NCBI GenBank assembly: GCA_026985515.1
Contig: JALSQH010000088.1
Coordinates: forward strand, 1 to 14,990
DNA from: a bacterium
Lineage (GTDB): Bacteria; JALSQH01
Direction: 5' to 3'
DNA: 14,990 nt
Shown: piece after piece, positions 1 to 7,677 of the stretch
Layout of the letters: the number at the start of each line of letters is the position of its first letter
Numbering within the stretch: the first letter of the stretch is position 1
The notes under the pieces: generated by a model
The model's input: only the letters and a program-made list of their open reading frames with translations
Told to the model about the DNA's origin: nothing
Databases searched by the model: none
Made by a program: the position numbers and the translations under genes

Positions 1-424
1 AAGGAGGTGGAGGGGGCGTCCCATCCACAGTTAATGTGAAAGTGGTTGAGTAGGTTCTGTTGTTATCTGTGGTCGTTGTGAGAATGAAAGGATACTTTCC
101 ATCCTGAAAATCAAAAATATATTTATCCCCGGTTTCAGTTGTAATGGAATTTGATGTTATGTAAAATCTGACTGTCACTCCTTCCTGGCAGGAAATATTT
201 TTCAAGGCCGCCTTTTCTTCAGTTCCATTTTTATATTTTAGAGTGTATCTCCCATCTGCAGGGGGTGTCCAGAAAATGTAAGCCTTTCCAGCAGGGATGT
301 TGGGGTTAATGTTTATAATAAGATCCTGAGGTGAAACATAGTCAAGTTTCAGAGGTTCATCTGCTACCAGGTTGAAGGAAAAGAGGAGGAGAAGTAAAAC
401 TCCTCCTCTACAGATATTTTTCAA
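1..424 (-). CDS. Exported protein of unknown function, N-terminal part (runs off left edge)
   Basis: This frame stays open from a TTG codon at 424-422 to the window edge, giving about 141 residues. The N-terminus reads MKNICRGG followed by a hydrophobic stretch (VLLLLLFSFNLVA) and then DEPLK, a convincing signal peptide with likely cleavage after LVA. The mature part is rich in Thr, Tyr and beta-branched residues (for example FTLTVDG), like an Ig-like or other beta-sandwich domain, and reaches a run of five prolines at the edge that looks like a domain linker. No ATG or GTG is available: the frame's only plausible start is the TTG inside the last codons of asd, and it has no obvious Shine-Dalgarno sequence. 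A strong SD-like AGGAGG lies inside the signal-peptide codons instead. It probably follows asd by translational coupling. Family not recognised; a cell-envelope or secreted role is inferred. Confidence 0.72.
   Translation of the reverse strand, partial: MKNICRGGVLLLLLFSFNLVADEPLKLDYVSPQDLIININPNIPAGKAYIFWTPPADGRYTLKYKNGTEEKAALKNISCQEGVTVRFYITSNSITTETGDKYIFDFQDGKYPFILTTTTDNNRTYSTTFTLTVDGTPPPPP
382..409 (-). terminator. Hairpin overlapping asd stop codon (possible weak terminator)
   Basis: On the minus strand the last bases of the asd stop codon begin a perfect 10-bp stem, AGAGGAGGAG pairing with CTCCTCCTCT, around an 8-nt loop TTTTACTT. Only three further T residues follow before CC, so the U-tract is short. 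It may act as a weak terminator or attenuator after asd. The same bases encode the Arg-Gly-Gly and poly-Leu part of the downstream gene's signal peptide, so the symmetry could partly reflect codon usage. Confidence 0.45.
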
Positions 425-1433
425 TAAGAATTTCAGCAATTTGTATGGCATTAAGGGCTGCCCCCTTACGAATATTGTCCGCCACTATCCACATATTTAT
501 ACCGTTGGGTATGGAAAAATCTTCTCTGATTCTTCCCACAAAGACCTCATCTTTTCCTGCGGCATTAATGGCAAGTGGATAGATGTTGTTCTTCGGATCA
601 TCCTCAACCACTACTCCGGGAGCTTTTTTAAGGAGTTCCCTCACTTCATCTGGAGTGATTTTCTTTTCCGTTTCAATATTAACAGCTTCAGAGTGTCCGT
701 AGAAAACGGGTACTCTAACGCATGTTGCTGTTACCTGTATGGAGTCATCATGCATTATTTTCTTGGTTTCATTAACCATTTTCCACTCTTCTTTGGTATA
801 GCCATCGTCAAAAAATACGTCGATGTGGGGTAGTACATTGAAAGCTATTTGATGGGGGAAAACTTTTGGTTCAGTTGGACCCTTCCCGTTAAGTATACTT
901 ACTGTTTGCTCAAAGAGTTCATCCATTGCTTTTTTTCCTGCTCCGGAAGTAGCCTGATATGTTGCAACAACTATTCTTTTAATTTTTGCCACGTCATGGA
1001 TTGGTTTCAGAGGAACAACCATCTGGATGGTGGAGCAATTTGGATTTGCTATAATGTTTCTGTTCCTGTACATTGCTATGTCTTCAGGATTGACTTCTGG
1101 AACCACAAGAGGGATGTCCGGTTCCATTCTCCATGCACTTGAATTATCAATTACCACTGCTCCAGCCTCTGCCGCTATAGGGGCAAACTTTTTGCTTGTA
1201 CTTCCACCTGCGGAAAAAAGGGCGATTTCAATTCCCTTAAATGAGTCCTCTTTCAATTCTTCCACCATAATATCCTCACCCTTCCACTGGAGGAATGTAC
1301 CAGCTGACCTGCTTGAGGCAAGGAATTTTATGTTTTTTACGGGAAAATTTCTTTCCTGCAGAATACTGATAAATTCTCTCCCAACTGCCCCTGTTGCACC
1401 AACCACTGCTACATTGTAACCTTCCTTCTTCAT
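408..1433 (-). CDS. asd: Aspartate-semialdehyde dehydrogenase
   Basis: Reduces aspartyl-4-phosphate to aspartate-4-semialdehyde with NADPH in the cytoplasm, the branch point to lysine/diaminopimelate, threonine, methionine and isoleucine. The protein is 341 aa, full length for the family. It begins with the dinucleotide-binding motif VVGATGAVGRE (residues 10-20). The catalytic cysteine is C133 in NPNCSTIQ, and the substrate-binding region includes CVRVPVFYGHSEA (about 238-250), with the conserved Arg240 and His247. An AAGGAGGA Shine-Dalgarno precedes the ATG at 1433. It lies 17 bp downstream of leuB and is likely the last biosynthetic gene of the leu run. Its last codons overlap the start of an exported protein. 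Asd beside leuB is a recurrent arrangement in bacteria. Family call is very secure. Confidence 0.97.
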   Translation of the reverse strand: MKKEGYNVAVVGATGAVGREFISILQERNFPVKNIKFLASSRSAGTFLQWKGEDIMVEELKEDSFKGIEIALFSAGGSTSKKFAPIAAEAGAVVIDNSSAWRMEPDIPLVVPEVNPEDIAMYRNRNIIANPNCSTIQMVVPLKPIHDVAKIKRIVVATYQATSGAGKKAMDELFEQTVSILNGKGPTEPKVFPHQIAFNVLPHIDVFFDDGYTKEEWKMVNETKKIMHDDSIQVTATCVRVPVFYGHSEAVNIETEKKITPDEVRELLKKAPGVVVEDDPKNNIYPLAINAAGKDEVFVGRIREDFSIPNGINMWIVADNIRKGAALNAIQIAEILIEKYL

Positions 1434-1450
1434 TTTATAAAATCCTCCTT

Positions 1451-2539
1451 TTATGCCTTTAAAATATTTTCTAAGTTTGCGGCAATTATGTCACCCATTT
1501 TTTTTGTACCTACAACAGTGGTTCCTTCTTCATAAATATCCTGAGTTCTGTAGCCATCTTCAAGAGCCTTTTCCACCGCTTTTTCAATTGCCTCCGCTAT
1601 TTTATCCTGTTTGAAAGTGTATCTGTACATCATTGCCACAGAGAGAATTGTTGCAATAGGATTGGCTTTATCCTGGCCGGCAATATCGGGAGCACTCCCG
1701 TGTACCGGCTCATACATACCTCCTTTTTCACCAAGACTTGCTGAAGGTAGCATTCCTATTGATCCCGTCAACATGGATGCTTCGTCACTCAGGATGTCAC
1801 CAAACATGTTGCAGGTGAGGATAACATCAAATTGTCCGGGATTCCTGACAAGCTGCATTGCGCAGTTATCCACATACATGTGGTTAAGTTCCACATCGGG
1901 ATAATCCTTGTGGACTTCTTCCACAACGTTTCTCCAGAGTTCCGTGGCTTCGAGTACATTTGCTTTATCAACGCTTGTTACTTTTTTCCTTCTCTGTCGT
2001 GCAATTTCAAAGGCTATTTTTGCAATTCTCCTTATTTCATCCTCGGTATAGGCAAGGGTGTTAACCCCTTTTCTTCTGCCATCAGGCAGAGTTTCCACGC
2101 CCTTGGGTGTTGCAAAGTAGAGGCCGCCTGTCAATTCTCTGACCACTATGAGGTCAATATTTTTAATGACATCCTCTTTGAGCGTAGAGGCAGACAGGAG
2201 TTGGGGAAAAACCCTCGCTGGCCGAAGATTGGCAAACAATCCAAGTTCCTTTCTCAGGGCGAGCAGTGCTCTCTCGGGTCTGATTGAATAATCCAGAGGT
2301 TCCCATTTAGGTCCACCCACAGCTCCCAGCAGTACGGCGTCAGCGGAGAGTGCAAGTTGAAGATTCTCATCTGTTAGGGGAACACCATATCTGTCAATGG
2401 AGGCACCTCCAGCAATTCCCTCCCTTATCTCAAGCTGTACGTCGGTTAATTTATTTACAGTGTCAATAATTTTCCTGGCCTCTGCAACAACTTCCACTCC
2501 AATTCCGTCTCCCGGGAAAACAGCGACGGTATATCTCAT
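1451..2539 (-). CDS. leuB: 3-isopropylmalate dehydrogenase
   Basis: Oxidises and decarboxylates (2R,3S)-3-isopropylmalate with NAD+ to 4-methyl-2-oxopentanoate, the third step of the leucine pathway. The protein has 362 aa, the normal length. Visible signatures are FPGDGIG near the N-terminus (8-14), substrate-binding arginines in [15 protein letters not shown] (95-109) and VVRELTGG (132-139), VDKAN with the catalytic Lys192, [10 protein letters not shown] (221-230), the metal-binding [11 protein letters not shown] (244-254) and the cofactor loop [12 protein letters not shown] (277-288). The context with leuC and leuD selects leuB over isocitrate or tartrate dehydrogenase paralogues. The ATG at 2539 directly follows the TAG stop of leuD (TAGATG), so translation is probably coupled. 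Confidence 0.97.
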
Positions 2540-3046
2540 CTATTTTCCTCCCAGGTTATATTTTTTCTTTATGTATTCCATCAGTCCTCCAGCTTCCAGA
2601 AGTTCCTCCATGAATGGTGGTATGGGATTGGCTTTGTAGGTGATTCCCGTTCGTGTATTTTTTATGGTACCAGCTTTGGTGTCTATTTCAATTATGTCTC
2701 CCTCTTCTATGCCATCCACAGCCTCCGGTGCTTCAAGAATGAGGAGTCCAGTGTTAAAAGAGTTTCTGTAGAAAATCCTTGCAAAGCTCTTAGCAATAAC
2801 TGCGGCAACACCCGCTGCTTTAATGGCTATGGGAGCGTGTTCCCTGCTTGACCCTGATCCAAAATTTTTTCCGGCAACAATTATGTCACCCTTGCTTACT
2901 TTTTTGGGAAAATCTGGATCTGCATCTTCCATGCAATGTTCTGCAAGTTTTTCAGGATCTGAGGTGTTGAGATATCTTGCAGGAATGATCCTGTCTGTAT
3001 CAATATCATCACCAAATTTCCAGACCTTACCTCTTATAATAGCCAT
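2540..3046 (-). CDS. leuD: 3-isopropylmalate dehydratase small subunit
   Basis: Small, swivelling subunit of isopropylmalate isomerase, which with LeuC interconverts 2- and 3-isopropylmalate. I place the start at the ATG at 3046, one base after the leuC TAA, giving 168 aa beginning [18 protein letters not shown]. An upstream in-frame ATG at 3073 lies inside leuC and would add nine residues not expected for the family; the GGGGGAAG sequence near the end of leuC fits the shorter start. Key motifs are [14 protein letters not shown] (13-26) and the substrate-specificity loop region [12 protein letters not shown] (61-72). The length is that of the short LeuD class shared with archaea and many thermophiles. 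It pairs with the adjacent long LeuC. Confidence 0.96.
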
Positions 3047-3047
3047 T

Positions 3048-4322
3048 TTAATCTTCCCCCTGATAAACTTCATCTGGATGAGTTATCCTACCTGTTATAG
3101 CTGAGGCAGCAGCAACTGCCGGACTTGCAAGATAGACCTCACTTTCAGGATGTCCCATTCTTCCCACAAAATTCCTGTTGGTGGTTGCAAGTGCCCGTTC
3201 CCCTTTAGCAAGTACCCCCATGTGACCTCCAAGACACGGACCGCATGTGGGTGGTCCGATTACTGCTCCGGCCTCAGTTAAAATTTCAATGATGCCTTCC
3301 TTTAAAGCCTGTCTGTAAATTGTGGGTGTTGCAGGAATTACTATGAGTCTGAGATATTTCTTTTTCTTCTTTCCCTTAAGAATTTTTGCTGCTATTCTGA
3401 GATCTTCAAGTCTTCCATTTGTGCATGAGCCTATGAAGACCTGATCAATTTCGATATGGGAAACTTCCCTTACATTTTTAGTGTTTTCCGGGAGGTGAGG
3501 TAGAGCCACCTGTGGTTCGATTTCAGTAACATCTATGTCTATGACTTCACTGTATTTTGCATCACTGTCGCTGTAGTAGAGTTTGTAACTTCTCTTTGCT
3601 CTGTTTTTTATGAATTCGAGTGTAATTTCGTCTGGCGGAATAATTCCATTCTTGGCACCTGCTTCAACAGCCATATTGGCCATTGTAAATCTATCTGACA
3701 TGGGTAATTCTTCAATTACAGGCCCACGGAATTCCATTGCCTTGTAAAGCGCTCCATCTACACCAATTTTCCCAATGGTGTAAAGTATGAGGTCTTTCCC
3801 TGTTACCCATCTATTTCTTTTGCCATGATAGACAAATTTTATACTTTCAGGTACCCTTAACCATATTTCACCGGTTACCCACGCAGCAGCTAAATCTGTG
3901 CTTCCCACCCCTGTTGAAAAGGCGCCAAGTGCTCCATATGTGCATGTGTGACTGTCAGCACCTATTACCAGATCCCCGGGGAGAACTATTCCCTGCTCAG
4001 GAAGGAGAACATGTTCAATCCCCACTTCACCCAGTTCAAAGTAGTGGGTAATCCCATATTCCCGAGCAAAATCCCTGAGTATCTTGGCCTGAGTTGCTGA
4101 AAGGATGTCTTTGTTGGGAGTGAAATGATCAGGTACAAGTACAACCCTGTTTACATCAAAGACCTGTTTGGCTCCCAGTTCTTTAAATTTTCTTATTGCA
4201 ATGGGTGCTGTAACATCGTTACCCAGTGCAATATCCACTTTCACCGTGATGAGTTCACCTGGCTCAACGCTTTTCTTACCGGCGTGATCAGCAAGTATTT
4301 TTTCGGTAATTGTCATTCCCAT
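3048..4322 (-). CDS. leuC: 3-isopropylmalate dehydratase large subunit
   Basis: Large catalytic subunit of isopropylmalate isomerase, an aconitase-family enzyme. The 424-aa length matches the shorter LeuC class paired with a ~165-aa LeuD. The three [4Fe-4S] ligands are visible: C300 in FIGSCTNGR, and C360 and C363 in [13 protein letters not shown]. The [20 protein letters not shown] region (122-141) is also typical. A GGAG sequence seven bases upstream supports the ATG at 4322; a second ATG two codons later is a possible alternative. The gene begins 14 bases after smpB, with no room for a leader peptide or attenuator, so leu gene expression here probably depends on transcription from upstream. 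A homoaconitase paralogue is unlikely because leuB and leuD are adjacent. The lysine-rich stretch GKKKKKY at about 317-323 is a small local oddity. Confidence 0.96.
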
Positions 4323-4336
4323 TGTGCTTCTCCATG

Positions 4337-4813
4337 TTACCAGTTCTTCTTTTGATATTCTTTTATTTCCCTTTCCATTTCGCGTTTCATCTCTTTTTCT
4401 CTGATTATTTCTCTTTTGTCGTACTTCTTCCTGCCCTTAACAAGGGCAAGCTCGACCTTTATCTTACCATTTTTAACATATACTTTCAAAGGAACGAGAG
4501 TGAGACCTTTTGTTTTCAATTTACCGGCAAGTCTGTCTATTTCCCTTCTGTGAAGGAGAAGTTTCCTCCTTCTGTAAGGATCCACTCTGTCGTATGTGGA
4601 ATATTGATACGGTGGAATATGCGAATTGAGCAAAAAAACTTCTCCGTTATCGATTATTGCAAAAGAGTCCCTGATGTTTATGTGACCATTTTTTGCCGAT
4701 TTAACTTCACTTCCTTTAAGTTCTATACCAGCTTCGATTGTTTCGAGTATCTCGTAATTGTGATAGGCTTTTTTATTTACTGTCAGAACCTTTACTGAAT
4801 CGTTTCTGGTCAT
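4337..4813 (-). CDS. smpB: SsrA-binding protein SmpB
   Basis: Binds tmRNA and brings it to stalled ribosomes for trans-translation and tagging of incomplete proteins. I choose the ATG at 4813 (158 aa, [20 protein letters not shown]) because a GGAGGA Shine-Dalgarno lies just upstream and this matches the usual 150-160 aa. A longer frame from 4882 would add residues unlike the family inside the preceding gene. Typical blocks are [15 protein letters not shown] (29-43), [20 protein letters not shown] (65-84), [20 protein letters not shown] (103-122) and GRKKYDKR (127-134). A long basic helical tail follows, ending in Trp, the tail that reaches into the mRNA path. The start overlaps the end of the DUF502 gene by 41 bp, so coupling is likely. 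No ssrA gene is visible nearby. Confidence 0.96.
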
Positions 4814-5417
4814 TTTCTCCTCCGGGCGTGTAGATTCCACCCGAAATGATGAATGAAAATGCATCATCAATGCTGATGTCAAGAGGAATCAACTCCTCTT
4901 CGGGTGCAAGAATTACGAAGCCGCTTGTTGGATTTGGTGAAGTTGGTATAAAGAGGGTAACTAAGTTATCCTTTTCCCCATTTTTGATAAAATTTTTTTC
5001 TGATGTGACAAAACCTATGGCAAATATGCCCTTTCTCGGATACTCAATTGCAACCACTTTGAGAAATCTGCTTCTGTCAATTACTGTTATATTCTGGGTG
5101 ATTTTTTTTATGCTTGTGTAAATTCCCCGTATTCCGGGTATTTTCTGGAGGAATTGCTCCCAGTAGAAAAGCAGTTTTTTGCCGAAGTATCTGTTTGAGA
5201 AGAATCCTATAAGGTAGATGATGATAAATGCCAGAAGCAATCCAAGGCCAGGTATTTCAGGAATTCCTTTAAATGGAATGAGAATTTTGAGAAGTTTGTT
5301 GGAAAATTTTATCAGAATGTAAAGCACATAAATTGTGCCGATAAATGGCAGGAGAAGCAACAGTCCTGTTATAAAGTTTTGTTTAATGTGAAGTGAAAAG
5401 CTGTTTTTTTCCTTCAT
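4773..5417 (-). CDS. DUF502 family membrane protein
   Basis: A 214-aa inner-membrane protein of the DUF502 family, whose biochemical role is not established. Two hydrophobic segments are visible at about 15-40 and 57-74, followed by the family's soluble part with SIKKITQ (about 102-108) and the very characteristic PTSPNPTSGFVILAPEEELIPLDIS, in which the PNPTSG block is diagnostic. The C-terminal tail is polar and charged. The ATG at 5417 has a GAGGGGG Shine-Dalgarno a few bases upstream. It is the first gene after the panD terminator and overlaps smpB by 41 bp. No promoter was recognised in the 27 bases between the end of the terminator hairpin and the start codon, so it may depend on read-through or on a non-consensus promoter. 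Confidence 0.92.
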   Translation of the reverse strand: MKEKNSFSLHIKQNFITGLLLLLPFIGTIYVLYILIKFSNKLLKILIPFKGIPEIPGLGLLLAFIIIYLIGFFSNRYFGKKLLFYWEQFLQKIPGIRGIYTSIKKITQNITVIDRSRFLKVVAIEYPRKGIFAIGFVTSEKNFIKNGEKDNLVTLFIPTSPNPTSGFVILAPEEELIPLDISIDDAFSFIISGGIYTPGGENDQKRFSKGSDSK

Positions 5418-5435
5418 ATCCCCCTCTATTTGAGC

Positions 5436-5476
5436 AAAATAAAAGGGGGAATGTTCCCCTCCAGGAATTCCCCCTT
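5436..5476 (-). terminator. Intrinsic terminator after panBCD
   Basis: Reading the minus strand after the panD stop, AAGGGGGAAT pairs perfectly with ATTCCCCCTT (10 bp; 5467-5476 with 5443-5452). The enclosed loop can extend the stem through TCC/GGA, and TTTTATTTT follows. This is a strong intrinsic terminator closing the pantothenate operon. The opposite strand also has an A/T-rich flank, so weak bidirectional action is possible. Confidence 0.88.
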
Positions 5477-5503
5477 ATTTTAGCTGGAGATGAACAGAAG
5501 CAC

Positions 5504-5875
5504 TTATACCAGTTGCGGACCTTTAATTTCTTTTATCCTGTTGTTTTCATCTACAAGGACAATTGTGGGAACATGATTTCTTGCTTCTTCCTCACTCATT
5601 GTGACATAGCAGGCAATTATGATAAGATCACCAACAGCAACTTTCCTCGCTGCAGCTCCATTGAGGCAGATTGTCCCACTTCCTCTTTCTCCTTCAATTA
5701 CATAAGTTGAGAATCTTTCTCCATTCGTTATGTTGTAAATGTCAACTTTTTCATAGGGAAGCAATCCTGCAGCATCCATAAGGTTTCTGTCTATGGTTAT
5801 ACTCCCTTCATAGTTGAGGTCGGCTTCTGTAACCTTCGCTCTGTGAATTTTGGATTTGAGAATGATCCTTTCCAT
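5504..5875 (-). CDS. panD: Aspartate 1-decarboxylase proenzyme
   Basis: Pyruvoyl enzyme that decarboxylates L-aspartate to beta-alanine for pantothenate synthesis. The proenzyme self-cleaves at Gly24-Ser25 in [11 protein letters not shown], leaving the pyruvoyl group on the new alpha-chain N-terminus. The protein is 123 aa from the ATG at 5875 ([20 protein letters not shown]). This start puts the cleaved serine at position 25, as is standard, and a GGAGG Shine-Dalgarno lies seven bases upstream; a TTG one codon earlier is less likely. Other family features are the conserved Lys9, [22 protein letters not shown] (about 62-83) and [13 protein letters not shown]. It lies 13 bp after panC, last in the panBCD operon, with a terminator downstream. 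Confidence 0.97.
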
Positions 5876-5888
5876 CAAAAATCCTCCT

Positions 5889-6737
5889 TTAGGGTTTAAG
5901 GATAGTGTTGTCTATCAGTCTTGCCTGACCAACCCAGACCGCAAGGGCAAGAAGAGCTCCGCTCTCTGGAAGTTCATCAATTGTTACGAGAGTTTCAGGA
6001 TCAGTTGTTTCAACATAATCTATCTTTGTATGGGGATATTTTTCTATAAATCTTTTGACTTCTTCTCTTATCTTTTTCAGATTCCTCTCTCCTTTTTTCA
6101 CCATCTCTTCGGCGATTCTGAGAGCTCTGTTTAAACTGAGGGCAGATTCTCTTTCCTCTGGAGAAAGGTATTTGTTCCTTGAACTCATTGCGAGACCATC
6201 TTTTTCCCTCACTATTGGCATTCCAATAATTTTCACCGGGAAATTCAGGTCCCTTACCATTCTCTCAATAATTTTCAACTGCTGGTAATCCTTCTTTCCA
6301 AATATGGCAATATCTGGTTGAACTATGTTAAAGAGTTTTGTAACCACAGTGGTAACACCTCTGAAGTGCCCCGGCCTGCTTTTTCCGCAGAGATACTTTG
6401 AGAGTTCTGTTACTTCAACAAATGTCTGATAACCCTCAGGGTACATATCCTTCATTTCAGGATAAAAAATATAATCAACCCCTTCTTTTTCACACAGCTT
6501 CTTATCCCGCTCAAAATCTCTTGGATATCTATCGAGGTCTTCATTGGGTCCAAACTGGGTGGGATTTACAAAGATACTGACAACCAGAATATCACCTCTT
6601 TTTCTACCTTCTCTTATGAGACTCAAATGACCCTCATGCAGGTATCCCATGGTTGGAACAAATGCTATTTTTTCTCCTTTAAGTCTGTGCTGAAAAATTA
6701 TCTTCTGCATTTCTTCTGGTTTCTGGACTATCTTCAT
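5889..6737 (-). CDS. panC: Pantothenate synthetase (pantoate-beta-alanine ligase)
   Basis: Joins pantoate and beta-alanine with ATP, through a pantoyl-adenylate intermediate, to form pantothenate in the cytoplasm. The 282-aa length is normal. It shows the nucleotidyltransferase HIGH-type motif [10 protein letters not shown] (28-37), [21 protein letters not shown] (53-73), the pantoate-binding RPGHFRGV (121-128), FGKKDYQQL (146-154) and the KMSKS-like segment [10 protein letters not shown] (183-192). The ATG at 6737 comes only 3 bp after panB, with a GAGGGATGAAAG ribosome-binding region inside the panB end. It receives pantoate from the PanB route and beta-alanine from PanD, encoded on either side. 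The reductase for ketopantoate (PanE or IlvC) is not in this window. Confidence 0.97.
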
Positions 6738-6740
6738 CTT

Positions 6741-7544
6741 TCATCCCTCAAATGAGTGGTTTTCATCCGGGAAGATTTCCTCTTTTACTTCCTTTATATA
6801 CATACCCACTGCTTCGGTAATGAGTGTGTGCAGATCAGCGTATTTTTTCAAAAATCTGGGATTGAATTCCTTATCCATTCCAAGTAAATCGTAAATCACA
6901 AGTATCTGCCCATCGGTGTATTTTCCTGCACCTATACCAATTGTTGGAATAGATATGCTTTCTGTAATCTTCTTTGCAAGAGGCCAGGGGATACTCTCCA
7001 GTACAAGAGCATAGGCACCTGCTTCTTCAATTGCTTTTGCAGATTCGAGAAGATACCTGGCCTGTTCCTCATCCCTTCCCTGAACCCTGTATCCACCAAA
7101 TTTATGAACTGATTGGGGTGTTAATCCTATATGCCCCATAACCGGGATTCCTGCCGAGGTTATTTTCCTGATGGTTTCGGCCCTTTCAACTCCTCCCTCA
7201 AGCTTGACTGCTTCAGCAAATCCTTCTTTTATGAGCCTGCCGGCACTCTCAAGAGCCTGTTCGGGAGAGATCTGATAACTCATAAAGGGCATGTCTGCTA
7301 CAAGATGAGCTCTTTTTATACCTCTTGATACAGCCCGGGTGTGATAAATAACATCTTCCAGGGTTACCTGAAGGGTTGTTTCTCTTCCCTGTATGACCAT
7401 TCCGAGGGAATCACCTACAAGGATAACCTCCACTCCGGCTTCATCAAGGATTCTTGCAAAGGTGGCATCGTATGCTGTTAGAGCTGTAATTTTCTCCCCC
7501 TTCTTTTTCATTTCTTTGAGGTAGGGGGCTGTAATCTTCTTCAT
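6741..7544 (-). CDS. panB: 3-methyl-2-oxobutanoate hydroxymethyltransferase
   Basis: Transfers a hydroxymethyl group from 5,10-methylene-tetrahydrofolate to 2-ketoisovalerate, giving ketopantoate, the committed step to pantothenate and CoA. The protein has 267 aa. Signatures include [17 protein letters not shown] (21-37), the metal-binding VGDSLGMV (43-50), ADMPFMSY (83-90), KLEGG (114-118), MGHIGLTPQ (136-144), the catalytic Glu183 in LVLESIP and [13 protein letters not shown] (201-213). The start at 7544 has a GGAG Shine-Dalgarno seven bases upstream, directly behind a terminator-like hairpin. It is first in panBCD and is probably controlled by the structured leader. It uses the same 2-ketoisovalerate that feeds leucine synthesis, whose genes lie downstream. 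Confidence 0.97.
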
Positions 7545-7555
7545 CTTCCATCTCC

Positions 7556-7636
7556 AATAAAAAAGGCCTTCCGAACCGGAAGGCCTGGATTTTCCTCCTC
7601 CAAACCGTCCCGGTCCGGAATTACCGGATCCAGGCG
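7556..7636 (-). promoter_or_regulatory. Structured 5' leader of panBCD: candidate riboregulator with terminator
   Basis: On the minus strand a GC-rich leader fills the space between a TATAAT box and panB. An 8-bp closing stem, GCCTGGAT (7635-7628) with ATCCAGGC (7590-7583), encloses 37 nt. That interior contains alternative short pairings: CCGG/CCGG across TAATT, or CCGGT/ACCGG. The 3' arm shares its last four bases with the 5' arm of the terminator at 7559-7586, so full versions of the two structures exclude each other. A conserved Pan RNA motif is known upstream of pantothenate genes in several phyla. This leader is in exactly that position, but I could not check it against the consensus. 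A T-box is not supported. Ligand unknown. Confidence 0.7.
7559..7586 (-). terminator. Intrinsic terminator inside panB leader (attenuator)
   Basis: The minus strand reads AGGCCTTCCG, a GTT loop, then CGGAAGGCCT, a perfect 10-bp stem (or 9 bp with a 5-nt loop), followed by six Ts that begin at the base of the stem. It lies only 14 bases before the panB start codon and upstream of its ribosome-binding site. It therefore cannot end a preceding gene and points to premature termination as a control point. Confidence 0.88.
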
Positions 7637-7643
7637 TATGTCA

Positions 7644-7677
7644 ATTATAAGTTTATATGTTTTTTCTTTTGTGTCAA
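7644..7677 (-). promoter_or_regulatory. Probable promoter of panBCD
   Basis: The minus strand carries a consensus TATAAT at 7649-7644. A consensus TTGACA lies at 7677-7672, but 22 bp away, which is longer than the usual 16-18. An alternative TATAAA at 7657-7652 would be 14 bp from TTGACA. With TATAAT as the -10, transcription would begin near 7637, immediately before the first stem of the leader RNA, which is a good fit. The -35 assignment is uncertain. Confidence 0.55.

Follow-up and report, generated by a model that had tools for sequence, protein, structure and literature searches.

In a 14,990-nucleotide stretch of bacterial DNA (contig JALSQH010000088.1, hereafter the window), the leader of the panBCD operon carries a single hairpin of the pan RNA motif (RF01749). 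We consider it probable that this leader is a transcription attenuator in which a closed pan hairpin turns panBCD off, while a freed pan strand forms an antiterminator and keeps the operon on. The antiterminator pairing proved to be specific to each leader across many bacteria when examined computationally, and it accounts for the conserved GGAAGG tail of the motif as an antiterminator strand wherever the leader has a terminator. The pan motif was described by Weinberg et al. in 2010 (PMC2864571), where, as far as the available part of that paper goes, most but not all members have tandem hairpins and no antiterminator is described. It was reported then without a ligand, protein or mechanism, and transcriptome studies of Bacillus and Paenibacillus have also noted it before panB; the literature searched, which included few subscription journals, described no pan ligand, antiterminator or kinase context. 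The present analysis names the competing bases, predicts a direction (pan stabilized, operon off) and narrows the signal to the late CoA pathway. These predictions are testable in B. subtilis, a carrier of the motif, and we infer that the switch and the wider regulon apply to the pan class as a whole.

A single pan hairpin in the panBCD leader

The operon lies on the minus strand and comprises panB (6741 to 7544; TIGR00222, 370 bits), panC (5889 to 6737; TIGR00018, 361 bits) and panD (5504 to 5878; TIGR00223, 182 bits). A consensus scan and reading of the same strand point to a probable panBCD promoter at 7644 to 7677, with a −35 candidate TTGACA (7677 to 7672) and −10 candidates TAAACT (7655 to 7650) or TATAAT (7649 to 7644), from which RNA would plausibly start at the pan hairpin or just 5′ of it. 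The initial annotation had likewise placed the leader between a predicted transcription start and the panB ribosome-binding site. The minus-strand leader reads CAUAC GCCUGGAUCC GGUAAUUCC GGACCGGGAC GGUUUGGAGGAGGAAAAUCCAGGCCUUCCGGUUCGGAAGGCCUUUUUU ... AUG(panB), the letters past the loop overlapping the 3′ arm, and folds more stably than its shuffles (z = −4.0; 0 of 200 as good). No further copies of it were found elsewhere in the genome. After panBCD, the same strand carries an unnamed membrane protein gene, smpB, leuC, leuD, leuB and asd (window 408 to 7544), and the leader might influence a longer transcript beyond panBCD.

Positions 7636 to 7606 form one hairpin in the minimum-energy fold, with arms at 7636 to 7624 and 7618 to 7606, a U7632–G7611 wobble, and opposed bulged residues A7629 and A7608 that appear in both covariance models as well. 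The likeness to RF01749 lies in this stem with two opposed conserved bulged As, in the core GCCUGGAUCC/GGACCGGGAC, and in its place upstream of panB, panC or panD, the core standing 62 nt from the start of panB in an operon of confirmed identity. It differs from the usual motif in having one hairpin where tandem hairpins are usual, and in its score. A covariance search against the Rfam pan model, as had been suggested for this leader, returned RF01749 as the top match in a permissive scan, at 26.2 bits against a cut-off of 36.2 bits, a curated gathering score for a two-hairpin model and not a structural definition. This low score is explained by the absence here of the first of the two hairpins that the model spans. 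Genome-wide, the leader was the sole RF01749 match (E = 0.024). The Phe leader, PyrR and rliA families also surfaced in the permissive scan, with weak scores at odds with the gene context, and were set aside.

A one-hairpin covariance model, R1, was constructed from 47 pan hairpins of other genomes with this genome excluded; several of the source hairpins exceed the Rfam cut-off at the same place. Searched against the 2.36 Mb genome, R1 gave one match, at the leader (33.8 bits, E = 3.9e-5), bearing out the earlier suggestion of a pan-motif relative independently of this genome. Within the R1 alignment of 47 relatives, 9 of the 11 pan-hairpin pairs changed on both sides, which none of 500 shuffles equaled. 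R1 found no second match in the window, the place of a tandem partner being taken by the AT-rich promoter region, and a simple pattern describing a tandem's first hairpin performed no better than on shuffles. From position and model together, the leader element is a pan hairpin, albeit one below the formal Rfam threshold; what is new is a single-hairpin, below-threshold member from a poorly sampled lineage.

A probable leader-specific antiterminator

The intrinsic terminator (7559 to 7586, minus strand) was confirmed as initially annotated: a perfect 10-bp stem, AGGCCTTCCG/CGGAAGGCCT (7586 to 7564), with a 3-nt loop and six Us at 7564 to 7559. Its 5′ half can instead pair with the pan hairpin. 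The 5′ strand of this antiterminator (7619 to 7599) consists of the pan 3′ arm and tail, UCCGGACCGGGA and GGUUUGGA on either side of the bulged C7607, and its 3′ strand (7589 to 7570), UCCAGGCCUUCCGGUUCGGA, comprises the bases before the terminator together with the terminator 5′ arm and loop. The resulting 20 bp, interrupted by the one bulged C, amount to −34.4 kcal/mol, a strength reached by 0 of 20,000 shuffles and by 3 of 20,000 random terminators matched to it in composition. Neither the pan hairpin nor the terminator can coexist with this pairing, which gives the leader the mutually exclusive states of an expression platform as judged by sequence and energy only.

The same relation recurs in relatives. 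Where a pan leader has a terminator, the terminator 5′ arm and loop are complementary to the pan 3′ arm and its conserved tail, usually GGAAGG, as when GAGACGGAAGGC pairs with GCCTTCCGTCT in locus L046 and GGACCGGGACGGGAGG with CCTTTCGGACTCGGTCC in L168. The window has GGUUUGGA in place of the consensus tail, with a matching departure in its partner (UCCAGGCC). Across 52 distinct leaders, own pairs averaged −22.3 kcal/mol versus −19.0 (sd 0.43) for partners exchanged between leaders, and 0 of 20,000 permutations, which here and below ignore phylogeny, reached the own mean, also after G+C correction. Other terminators of the same loci averaged −13.6 kcal/mol against the −22.3 of own terminators; the panB terminator beat the best other one in 32 of 42 loci, where 14.5 were expected. 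In 49 of the 52 leaders, the pairing involves five or more bases of the 13-nt pan 3′ segment. Two held-out sets, for which the definitions were fixed before testing, gave a permutation fraction of 1.5e-4 (25 leaders, one of them a duplicate of L062) and 0 of 20,000 (64 new leaders). Taken individually, 31 of 52, 15 of 25 and 29 of 64 leaders reached p 0.05 against shuffles. No terminator was detectable under the settings used in 25 of 78 leaders. A few carry the tail directly at the start codon (L048, L180), where it could serve as a ribosome site, and other expression platforms may therefore exist.

Competing stems and rival explanations

The leader of a biosynthesis operon that is controlled by a transcription-terminating riboswitch contains a sensor stem, an antiterminator and a terminator that are mutually exclusive. 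The window leader has the same three stems, with the difference that its putative sensor is a bare hairpin of ~31 nt whose ligand is only proposed. RNA polymerase would make the pan hairpin (7636 to 7606) first. A signal that holds it closed would render the pan 3′ arm unavailable, so that the terminator (7586 to 7564 plus the Us) would form and panBCD would be off; with no signal, the pan 3′ arm and tail (7619 to 7599) would pair with the 5′ arm and loop of the terminator (7589 to 7570) as these emerge, and the 20-bp antiterminator thus made would let transcription run on into panBCD.

At the end of the U-tract, the predicted energies are −40.3 kcal/mol for pan plus terminator, −38.2 for the antiterminator and −35.0 for an 8-bp stem discussed below, differences that fall within parameter error. 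With increasing transcript length, the predicted minimum shifts from the pan hairpin (~31 to 55 nt) through the 8-bp stem (58 to 67 nt) and the antiterminator (70 to 73 nt) to pan plus terminator (76 to 91 nt). This succession, together with the state energies, suggests that a signal holding the pan hairpin would favor termination. Since the terminator state is much more stable in most relatives (median 9 kcal/mol), the choice between states is probably kinetic.

The initial annotation had likewise proposed that competing stems set read-through into panBCD, which probably holds, but with the pan hairpin, antiterminator and terminator as the competitors. It had named instead a stem of the pan 5′ arm with downstream leader (7583 to 7635, minus strand), which would itself have to act as the antiterminator, a reading we regard as highly improbable. 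The stem does exist, GCCTGGAT (7635 to 7628) perfectly complementing ATCCAGGC (7590 to 7583) around a 37-nt interior, and it shares four bases with the terminator (7586 to 7583); it is borderline against shuffles (about 0.05) and is the predicted minimum for transcripts of ~58 to 67 nt, and solely for those. By itself it is not significant, because 23% of dinucleotide shuffles of the intergenic region contain a perfect 8-bp stem with a 20 to 60 nt interior. For the full leader it does not give the lowest predicted energy: when forced, it lies 3 to 5 kcal/mol above the other states, and it takes away only four terminator pairs. Collecting leaders from relatives gave no signal for pairing of the pan 5′ arm with downstream leader in any of the 52, 25 and 64 leaders, so that the 7635/7583 stem found no support as a conserved switch element, while the pairing of the pan 3′ arm with the terminator was leader-specific. 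The supported pair is thus the pan hairpin (7636 to 7606), to which the 5′ arm of the 8-bp stem belongs, and the antiterminator (7619 to 7599 with 7589 to 7570); the 8-bp stem was rejected as an antiterminator and is at most a transient folding intermediate. A plain constitutive terminator or leader-peptide attenuation, with the pan-like hairpin incidental, fares hardly better and is also very improbable: a terminator by itself reduces expression, and a 20-codon frame (7603 to 7541) crosses the leader, but the covarying hairpin and the leader-specific antiterminator would be left without explanation. The leader peptide is unsupported in its own right, as the frame begins only after the pan hairpin, with TTG, and lacks any run of pathway-related codons.

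A stronger contender keeps the same switch and has the pan hairpin held by a pathway-responsive regulatory protein, not by a metabolite directly; we give this a substantial chance, somewhat short of even. The pyr attenuator controlled by PyrR is a protein-dependent precedent, resembling the pan leader in an RNA hairpin whose stabilization would free the terminator, and differing in that the PyrR Rfam model scores 16.7 bits at the leader against a cut-off of 54. To our knowledge, there is no candidate protein for the pan hairpin. A protein could bind such a simple hairpin, with its two opposed bulged As and conserved U–G wobble, and a dimeric protein was proposed by the discoverers since most copies were tandem (PMC2864571). 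Against this, the window makes do with one copy, and R1 found a second adjoining copy in only 2 searched loci, a weak test as the 5′ hairpin diverges.

Gene contexts and the candidate signal

R1 matches occurred in 58 of 386 genomes drawn across bacteria and in 114 of 299 genomes of one phylum. Named records with a match include Deltaproteobacteria, Geobacter, Oryzomonas, Firmicutes, Clostridia, Nitrospinota and Nitrospirae, the last two being part of the R1 training set and hence not independently scored; one other genome of the window's phylum that was examined had neither panB nor a pan match. In a set of 31 loci, every match lies upstream of panB or panC. Other records have a DUF2520 gene (Pfam PF10728), perhaps a ketopantoate reductase, first after the pan RNA and then panB; such DUF2520/Rossmann-like genes, seen for example at L062 2112–2996, L079 329–1192 and L107 2027–2962, are the first gene in 52 of 79 loci of one set.

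Pan RNAs also precede operons for uptake and phosphorylation of pantothenate, contexts absent from the original description (PMC2864571). These comprise birA, an ECF S component and type III pantothenate kinase (L236, 100–2750; L240; L284); BioY, ECF S and the type III kinase (L239, 1292–3450; L254); ECF S and kinase (L296); and an OPT transporter with type II pantothenate kinase (L238, 100–2740). The ECF S components would carry pantothenate, judging from the neighboring kinase. In L255 a PanS-like transporter (298.9 bits; cut-off 400 bits) stands between the pan RNA and panC, and L258, with the same spacing to panC, probably shares this arrangement.

That biosynthesis, uptake and the first CoA step share one element suggests an end-product signal made after pantothenate kinase. 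The most likely signal is CoA, or else a different metabolite from late in the CoA pathway, acting by direct binding or via a protein, with phosphopantetheine, an acyl-CoA or a protein sensor as possible alternatives. Pantoate, one of the metabolites initially put forward, is less likely, since pan RNAs elsewhere stand before operons for pantothenate kinase and for transporters. CoA does not inhibit those type II and III pantothenate kinases that have been tested (PMC10116679), and control of kinase synthesis would fill this gap. We tentatively propose, while rating the full proposal as rather unlikely, that the pan RNA is a candidate class of CoA-sensing riboswitch for which one ~31-nt hairpin can suffice as the sensor, and that, by a pan/antiterminator/terminator switch common to the family, it jointly turns off the synthesis of pantothenate, its uptake and the pantothenate kinases that are insensitive to CoA.

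The window's genome contains a type III pantothenate kinase match, which has one in-frame TGA (L319; G000:C94:2074-2820), and no match to an ECF S component. Elsewhere, a pan RNA and terminator precede the gene of a 78-residue protein that has a CxxC pair and matches no family (L237, 3865–4101). In L252, L265 and L285 they stand before an unnamed amidohydrolase-family gene, followed by birA, and this amidohydrolase might act in pantothenate or CoA metabolism.
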